Shown one piece after another: positions 1 through 1,337 of a stretch of DNA of 64,000 nt. The stretch comes from Campylobacter showae CSUNSWCD. Its GTDB lineage: Bacteria > Campylobacterota > Campylobacteria > Campylobacterales > Campylobacteraceae. The first letter of the stretch is position 1. Each line of letters begins with the position of its first letter. Under the pieces are notes generated by a model, which ran no database searches, was not told the origin of the DNA, and worked only from the letters and a program-made list of their open reading frames with translations. The position numbers and the translations under genes are program-made. Location: NCBI RefSeq assembly GCF_000313615.1, contig NZ_AMZQ01000012.1:1-64000 (forward strand), written 5' to 3'.

Positions 1-36
1 GCCTTTGCTTTGTTTTATTGATGGTATCATAGCATT

Positions 37-198
37 TTAAACCTTAAATAGCAATACATTTTTCATACAGAGCCTTAAATTTTTAAATTCTACAGATAAG
101 CGGGTCTTGCCCGTACCATTAAAAGCATAAATTAATTGTGCTTTTTTATTCAAATTTTTAAGCTTATTTGCTATTTCGTTAAGAGAGCCAGCAAACAC
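37..198 (-). pseudogene. Truncated AAA-type ATPase fragment behind hsdS
   Basis: A GTG codon at 198 lies 8 bases behind an AAGGAG ribosome site that sits inside the end of hsdS. It opens a 53-codon frame reading ...[15 protein letters not shown]..., a clear Walker A P-loop (GTGKTR) preceded by a [15 protein letters not shown] stretch, and then stops at 37. A P-loop so close to the N-terminus fits the large AAA/SMC-like ATPases often found inside Campylobacter type I restriction loci, but this frame ends about 20 residues after the P-loop. I infer a gene broken by a deletion or frameshift. Whether more of it continues in another frame to the left cannot be seen from this window. Confidence 0.55.
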
Positions 199-200
199 TA

Positions 201-1337
201 CTATATCTCCTTTTCAATTTCTGTAAAATTTAATAGCTTTTCCCTGTAATACTCATACTGCTTGCGTCTTAGCTCTATCTCATGCGGCAAACCATCGGTT
301 ATAGAATTTATTAGCGTATCAAATTTATCTAAAATACGGACTATTTCATGCTGTACTTCTATTTGAGGTACAGGGATCTTAATTTTAGAATATTTACTAA
401 TCCAATGCCGCTCATGGTTTGTCGGCTCGAATTTTATACATCTCATAGCATAATAAACAAATTTGAAATCAGTAGCTTTGTTGTCTTTATTGCTTAAAAT
501 TTTGATCGCCGATGATTTAACTTTAAAATCAAAATCCACCCACTGAAATGCCGTTGTAAAATCATCAAAAATCATAGCTGGCACCTCAGAAGCTTTGTAA
601 ATTCCAAATGCTTCATTTGTATAGCCCAATATAAAGCTTTTGCCAGCCGTCAAAACAGGAATGCCAACTTTATCATCGTATCTTGTGTCATCTACAATAA
701 AATTTGTGGGTTGAGTATAATCCAAAATTTCGTCAAGCATTCTTAACTCACACCCCCCCCCATTTTTATTGAGCTCGTCAAAGCTTAAAAGGAAGTCGCG
801 GTAAAATTCGTATTGCTTTTTCCTAGCTGTAAGCTCTGCTGTAAGCTCTGCTGTAAGCAGCGTGAAACAGTCCAAAATACGGACTATTTCACGCTGAACT
901 TCCAGAGGAGGCACAGGAAATCTAAAGGCTTCTAGCTCGGACTTTGCCAATGCAGGTATTCCAGCTCCATATTGACTTTGCATAAAATTTTGCTGGTTCT
1001 TTTTTAGATAATGATAAACGTATCTTTTTAAAACATATTTCTCTTTTGCTGTTATCACAAAAGCATGCGCTCCAGCAAAAAAACTGGTATTCATCCAATT
1101 TACATACCCCGCACTAGCTCCGCCTTGACTAATAACAGTGGTATCAGCTTCGTGACTGTATTCATGCCAATATCCAGAAGGATTTATGCCACCATTCATT
1201 ACTGGATATTTGCCGTTTTTAGAAAGTAGCGATTTGTTTAACTGTTTACCTTTTTCAATATCTGCAACCTCTCCAAGCTCCATAAACTCCACTCCATCTG
1301 GACAAAGTTCATTTATAAGATCAAAAATTTTACTCAT
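201..1337 (-). CDS. hsdS: Type I restriction-modification specificity subunit HsdS
   Basis: DNA-recognition subunit of a type I restriction-modification enzyme, 378 aa. It has the classic two-half layout: target recognition domain 1 (about residues 15-140), a conserved helical region ([16 protein letters not shown] then RKKQYEFYR), target recognition domain 2 (about 200-320), and a second copy of the helical region ([25 protein letters not shown]). The central spacer holds tandem TAEL units (residues about 159-170), as in EcoR124-family HsdS, where copy number changes the recognised sequence. Between the halves, residues 193-195 are Gly-Gly-Gly encoded by a G9 run. The start overlaps the stop of the small upstream ORF (ATGA), with AAAGG upstream. 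hsdM precedes it; hsdR is not in the window and may lie further left. Confidence 0.93.
753..761 (-). repeat. G9 homopolymer inside hsdS
   Basis: Nine C on the plus strand (nine G in the coding strand) between the two halves of hsdS. The present length keeps the frame open. Gain of one G gives GTG TGA directly after the run; loss of one gives GTG AGT TAA. Either change therefore stops translation within about three codons. Poly-G runs of this length are the usual slipped-strand switches in Campylobacter. Confidence 0.85.
826..861 (-). repeat. 12-bp tandem repeat encoding TAEL units in hsdS
   Basis: Two perfect copies of a 12-bp unit (plus strand gctgtaagctct) at 826-837 and 838-849, followed by a partial third at 850-861. 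They encode [11 protein letters not shown] in the spacer helix between the two recognition domains. In the EcoR124I/R124/3 pair, two versus three TAEL copies change the length of the non-specific spacer in the recognised sequence. The in-frame unit can gain or lose copies without breaking the gene. Confidence 0.85.

Follow-up and report, generated by a model that had tools for sequence, protein, structure and literature searches.

A G tract at the joint of a Type IC-like hsdS gene in Campylobacter showae, a probable NgoAV-like switch between whole and half specificity subunits

Introduction

In gonococcal NgoAV, as described in the available excerpts of the source, hsdS1 ends at a polyG tract and encodes the specificity subunit, a protein of 208 aa; when one G is lost, hsdS1 and hsdS2 are fused and the recognised motif changes from GCAN8TGC to GCAN7STCA, and the tract ranges from 6 to 9 G across 92 strains (PMC9577141). 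NgoAV also carries LEAT repeats (0–3), whose number accompanies the motif together with poly-G length, according to the portion available of PMC6789123. Half-length HsdS proteins act as homodimers in NgoAV, EcoR124I and EcoDXXI in the accounts excerpted (PMC9577141, PMC3874165), which agrees with the claim of a preliminary description of the present locus that such halves dimerise elsewhere. EcoDXXI halves, which arise by transposon insertion or deletion, are described as reading a palindrome when present alone and as giving wild-type activity when both are present, while in EcoR124 the copy number of TAEL sets the gap between the half-sites at N6 or N7 (PMC3874165).

A comparable arrangement is reported for HpyUM032XIII of Helicobacter pylori, where G12 separates S1 from S2 and G11 fuses them with a change of specificity (PMC4450513, in part). 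HsdS proteins with a single domain or with three domains occur naturally in H. pylori, and JHP0785, with one domain, reads a palindromic motif; not all halves work, however, since TRD1 of JHP1422, a first domain, was inactive alone (all from excerpts of PMC3936762). In the excerpts available from the open-licence literature on Campylobacter hsdS/poly-G and on phase variation in C. concisus, no tract at the hsdS joint is described.

Results

Anatomy of the locus

The window (the whole 64-kb stretch of DNA analysed) begins at base 1 of contig C12 of the C. showae CSUNSWCD draft assembly (2.12 Mb, 23 contigs); its relevant features are given in Table 1. HsdS matches Methylase_S in two stretches (Pfam, E 3.6e-42), and HsdM contains N6_Mtase (E 9.6e-117) and HsdM_N (E 2.7e-16) domains, so that a two-domain HsdS adjoins an N6-adenine HsdM, as in EcoR124-like Type IC systems. 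HsdS also matches the EcoR124 specificity chain (7bst, a solved relative, compared at sequence level; E 3.7e-74). Among the 306 relatives in genome_contigs, the closest hsdS is from a record named Campylobacter concisus.

Table 1 Features of the hsdS region of the window.
Feature	Coordinates	Strand	Basis or remark
End of IS1595-type element	1..74		Recurs reversed at start of contig C6
AAA-type gene, 5′ part, behind hsdS, interrupted by IS1595-type element	75..198	minus	AAA_13
hsdS, Type IC-like specificity subunit, 378 aa; G9 = whole state	201..1337	minus	Methylase_S in two stretches
ATG in second-half frame, candidate restart in slipped states	738..740	minus	Counted on sequence
Slippage stop codons, TGA 750-748 (G10) and TAA 745-743 (G8)	743..750	minus	Computed
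G9 tract, joint between central helix and second recognition domain, Gly193-195	753..761	minus	Counted on sequence
TAEL repeat, 12-bp unit, two full and one partial copy, central spacer helix	826..858	minus	Counted on sequence
hsdM, N6-adenine methylase subunit, 518 aa	1414..2970	minus	Upstream of hsdS

The G9 tract lies in frame at the junction of the hsdS halves, as in NgoAV, and separates them as the preliminary description had stated; coordinates given there were accurate to within 3 nt. Computed slip products are 196 aa for G10 (one Val, then TGA) and 197 aa for G8 (Val-Ser, then TAA), matching the earlier account of a +1 slip to TGA and a −1 slip to TAA just after the run, whereas G6 and G12 preserve the reading frame. 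On slipping, a stop directly follows the tract, and one domain and the helix remain, again as in NgoAV. The half-length HsdS that had been claimed to keep the first recognition domain is upheld as a predicted product, and includes the whole central helix. The ATG placed just past both stops was found in position, 2 nt beyond the G8 stop and 7 nt beyond the G10 stop.

As far as the NgoAV excerpts go, the two loci share a G tract between hsdS halves at which a slip shifts between whole and half forms (410 versus 208 aa in NgoAV) with new specificity, as well as tetrapeptide repeats in the same gene, the NgoAV repeats being variable and associated with different gaps. They differ in repeat (LEAT versus TAEL), genus and recognition domains, and in the reference state, which is half in NgoAV (7G in FA1090) and whole in the window (G9). 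The window also has an ATG directly past the stops, and the C. showae tract is known from a single genome. The novelty attached earlier to a dual design of tract plus repeat was overrated, as both are already present in NgoAV (PMC6789123, in part).

EcoR124I and EcoR124II belong to the same family as the window HsdS and share the TAEL repeat, but the excerpts of PMC3874165 mention no G tract at their joint; there, truncated S of EcoR124I works as a homodimer, a parallel to the half predicted here. EcoDXXI halves differ in their origin, the predicted half of the window being produced by the tract. HpyUM032XIII, in the part of its description available, is a BcgI-like Type IIG protein combining methylase and nuclease, and not a Type I system.

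Alleles in close relatives

Eight joints were aligned (the window and seven relatives). In this alignment G9 is in frame in the window, in C. concisus H32O-S2 (L003) and in G014 (L087), while C. concisus AAUH-20UCf (L051) has G8 and a split gene, with two frames of 210 and 196 aa (stop to stop) that each give a nearly full Methylase_S match (Pfam). Over the 40 nt upstream of the tract, L051 matches L003 at every position and the window at 93%; over the 30 nt downstream, its identity is 87% to L003 and 70% to the window. Run lengths in related genomes, a comparison suggested by the preliminary description, thus include a G8 half allele beside G9 alleles at near-identical joints, the two states being found in separate records that share the name C. 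concisus. The L051 sequence is from a draft assembly and its G8 could be a consensus error. The closest alleles differ in their recognition domains too, and not in G count alone. Elsewhere, Haemophilus haemolyticus (G10) and H. quentini (G13) have the upstream 40 nt in common, and the frame is identical at both lengths.

In the comparison with 7bst, the second recognition domain of the window HsdS (residues 192-324) aligns with residues 12-146 of EcoR124, which form the first domain there. In another genome of the same genus (L084, G019:C1:1135910-1136332), the second domain of the window (residues 202-342, 77% identity) is found in first position, preceded by a match to window residues 1-26; domains have shifted from one position to another.

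Survey of hsdS joints

Repeats in hsdS genes have reportedly been surveyed by Atack and colleagues, said to be the source of the following figure. Simple repeats are present in 7.9% of hsdS genes, as quoted in the part available of PMC7394358. For the present survey, the best 80 of the 306 relatives in genome_contigs were combined with genus and phylum searches (matches in 13/48 genomes at E 1e-3 and in 73/397 at E 1e-20, respectively). A joint was defined by an RKKQY-type motif after at least 100 open codons, with a second such motif 330–950 nt further on. This gave 114 joints in 106 loci, 72 from the 80 genome_contigs loci and 42 from whole genomes, window counted; the definition relies on motifs and open frames and not on Pfam for each joint, and the set includes a few joints that belong to arrays or tandem genes. 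Motifs lacking a second motif downstream (146/260) were left uncounted, and seven of these 146 are followed by G7 or longer.

A run of G8 or longer lies behind the first motif at 23 of the 114 joints (18 open, 5 split; 12 of the 23 from the 80 top-ranked of the 306 genome_contigs relatives), with joint G runs of up to 10–13, in frame or split. G tracts at this one hsdS joint in four phyla are an addition of the present survey. From the record names, we take the named carriers to represent Campylobacterota (L003, L011, L051, L065), Bacteroidota (L012, L034, L035, L044), Bacillota (L017, one MAG) and Pseudomonadota (L021, Neisseria wadsworthii). Two variants were also seen: G19 behind a motif at position 1996 of L143 (genome G189), which has no second motif and is the longest among the 33 joints listed, and a C14 run replacing G behind the motif in an Elusimicrobiota MAG (L022:6497).

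Position within the gene bears on whether a slipped half is simply inactive, the tract then doing nothing but switch the system off, which we consider unlikely. An off switch would be free to sit anywhere, yet 24 of the 25 distinct G8+ runs in the surveyed genes lie 52–78 nt past an RKKQY-type motif, at the joint, leaving a complete half. The exception (L172, G11) is near the start of its reading frame, as is a C11 run in L148, both where an off switch would be expected; the four distinct C8+ runs comprise one at the joint, one near a frame start and two within a first domain. Published activities point both ways, with one H. pylori first domain inactive alone (excerpts of PMC3936762) but several Type IC halves active (excerpts of PMC3874165).

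Stops and start codons behind the tract

The 23 tract joints were compared with 48 controls that have an open frame and a G run 3–7 long, the other 43 joints (split or with a run <3) being excluded. Both alternative frames are closed within six codons in 19/23 tract genes and 8/48 controls (after clustering, 11/14 versus 4/38; Fisher p 6e-6). Codon-level tuning of these stops was rejected: synonymous reshuffling of 22 of the 23 tract genes (L175, containing N letters, was left out; L011 was assigned p 1 without simulation) yields stops that come just as early (median p 0.45, combined p 0.62), so that their early position is due to the residues behind the tract and not to codon choice. A cruder control using other positions in the same genes (median p 0.049, combined 4e-10) is given no weight, because the genes it compares are related to one another and it takes no account of which residues follow the tract.

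Translation could also restart at ATG740 in slipped states, which is possible at this locus; if both halves were made, first-first, second-second and first-second pairs would form. The ATG is 2 nt past the G8 stop, a geometry suited to coupled restart, and a matching ATG is present in 5 of the 7 aligned relatives. Activity restored by co-expressed EcoDXXI halves (PMC3874165, in part) is also consistent with such pairing. Across the survey an ATG lies within 15 nt in 8/23 tract genes (window counted) and 6/48 controls, but counted by clusters it is not enriched (2/14 versus 5/38) and thus not a general feature of these tract genes, and NgoAV hsdS2 is said, in the excerpt available, to encode no active protein (PMC9577141). 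Mixed pairing of this kind has a low probability.

Early stops without codon tuning would equally be expected if Gly runs were harmless in the joint loop and G tracts had drifted upwards unselected, and in an alignment of 33 proteins the tract does encode Gly in a length-variable linker past the central helix. We nonetheless regard a merely tolerated linker as quite improbable, given joint G runs of 10–13, the G19 in a gene with no second motif, and the split state of 5 of the 23 tract genes, with both L051 halves retaining their domain (Pfam).

Chance and sequencing error

G9 is the only run of G or C of 7 or longer in the window, where G and C runs together number 89 of length 4, nine of length 5, one of length 6, none of length 7 or 8, and one of length 9. 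A 5th-order Markov model, trained on the window itself with the tract left in, predicts 0.08 runs of 9 or longer per window (60 simulations). Length alone is nevertheless no proof of significance, because about 20 G8+ runs are expected genome-wide for independent bases at window GC (our arithmetic) and 12 are present. Two of the 12 reach length 13 (expectation ~0.01), and at least four fall in restriction-modification genes. A chance origin of G9 was rejected because of the position and conservation of the tract, which carry the case. A homopolymer length wrong through sequencing or assembly is very unlikely, despite a draft genome in 23 contigs, as 8 or 9 G are found at four joints with near-identical flanks, each in a separate record, one of which (G014) comes from a genome assembled into two contigs, the one concerned being 2.03 Mb long.

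TAEL repeat

The central helix, including TAELTAEL, aligns without gaps to 7bst and carries a tetrapeptide repeat of the Type IC kind. A 12-bp TAEL unit had been described in the spacer helix and is there, although its extent is that given in Table 1 and not 826-861. TAEL copy number in relatives, another comparison raised earlier, is the same as in the window in the three nearest alleles and one 12-nt unit lower only in C. portucalensis among the seven aligned relatives; no sign of fast TAEL switching was seen in these seven, and the case for TAEL as a second switch is weak. An association of repeat with tract was rejected: exact 12-bp tandem repeats are present in 16/23 tract genes and 32/48 controls, so that the repeat is an ordinary feature of the family, independent of the tract. 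As judged from these sequences, TAEL appears to be a spacing determinant that changes between species rather than a quick switch. Of the on, half and length-shifted states proposed for this one gene, the half state is supported (as a predicted product, with a G8 allele in a relative); length switching by TAEL is less well supported.

Other G-tract genes

In two Flavobacteriaceae MAGs (L012:3851-6176 and L034:4119-6493), hsdM is followed by a four-module specificity array and hsdR, each module consisting of a domain and a helix, with G8–G10 tracts at all three joints; the reading state is AB|CD in L012 and ABC|D in L034. These four-module arrays, in which every joint carries a G tract, are likewise an addition of the present survey.

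The genome of the window carries a methylase-specificity fusion (L125:1501; G000:C13:36431) with N6_Mtase followed by Methylase_S on either side of a G9 tract, which thus lies between two recognition domains; its alternative frames stop 3 or 6 codons past the tract. In a C-5 cytosine methylase gene of the same genome (L116:1501; G000:C7:88429), G9 is at the 5′ end, and the gene may be in an off state, because its family match lacks the first 21 profile positions.

Region downstream of hsdS

The 5′ part of the AAA-type gene encodes 41 residues and matches AAA_13 at E 0.00056 with 19.2 bits, short of the curated cut-off (36). After the 74 bases shared with the window, contig C6 carries a DDE_Tnp_IS1595 transposase gene, an HSDR_N_2 fragment with a G8 tract and an N6 methylase gene, within an IS1595-type element of ~5.2 kb with inverted ends (L164:1-5242; G000:C6), whose second end is at C6:5242. 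The sequence AAATTTAA flanks the element on both the C6 side and the window side (duplication). The remainder of the AAA gene (G000:C6:5193-6212; AAA_13, E 4.7e-10) is followed by hsdR (HSDR_N at G000:C6:6308). We infer that C12 and C6 adjoin, in which case the element interrupts the AAA-type gene that separates hsdS from hsdR. In C. concisus H32O-S2, hsdR (HSDR_N and EcoR124_C) lies directly behind hsdS.

Discussion

The hsdS gene of the window is most probably a phase-variable Type IC specificity gene that operates like gonococcal NgoAV, by switching between a whole and a half subunit. With G9, one HsdS with two recognition domains would join two HsdM and read an asymmetric two-part site. 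Replication slippage to G8 or G10, if it occurs within this species, would end translation no more than three codons past the tract, giving a half subunit of 196–197 aa that comprises the first recognition domain and the entire central helix. Two such halves, if active, would take the place of one HsdS and recognise a palindrome built from the first half-site, and the switch would therefore alter specificity, rather than plainly turning the system off. TAEL would set the gap between half-sites, at about N6 in the whole form, as the analogous EcoR124I with its two copies would suggest. The design is already known from NgoAV; the window is a further case and the mechanism is not new.

More tentatively, and at somewhat less than an even chance in our estimation, the G tract may be a general evolved joint of Type IC specificity genes, by which modules are used alone or joined, recurring 52–78 nt past an RKKQY-type motif in hsdS of four phyla, with a G9 also between the two recognition domains of the methylase-specificity fusion in the genome of the window; the Flavobacteriaceae loci would then be combinatorial specificity arrays driven by slippage. 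The four-module arrays, if this is true, would be a richer version of the whole/half switch.

These observations now place a probable NgoAV-like whole/half specificity switch in Campylobacter. On the evidence of the survey, Type IC systems in several phyla may have such a switch too. If this reading is correct, some hsdS pairs annotated as broken would be such a switch in its half state, and asymmetric and palindromic motifs would be found together in the methylome of one population.
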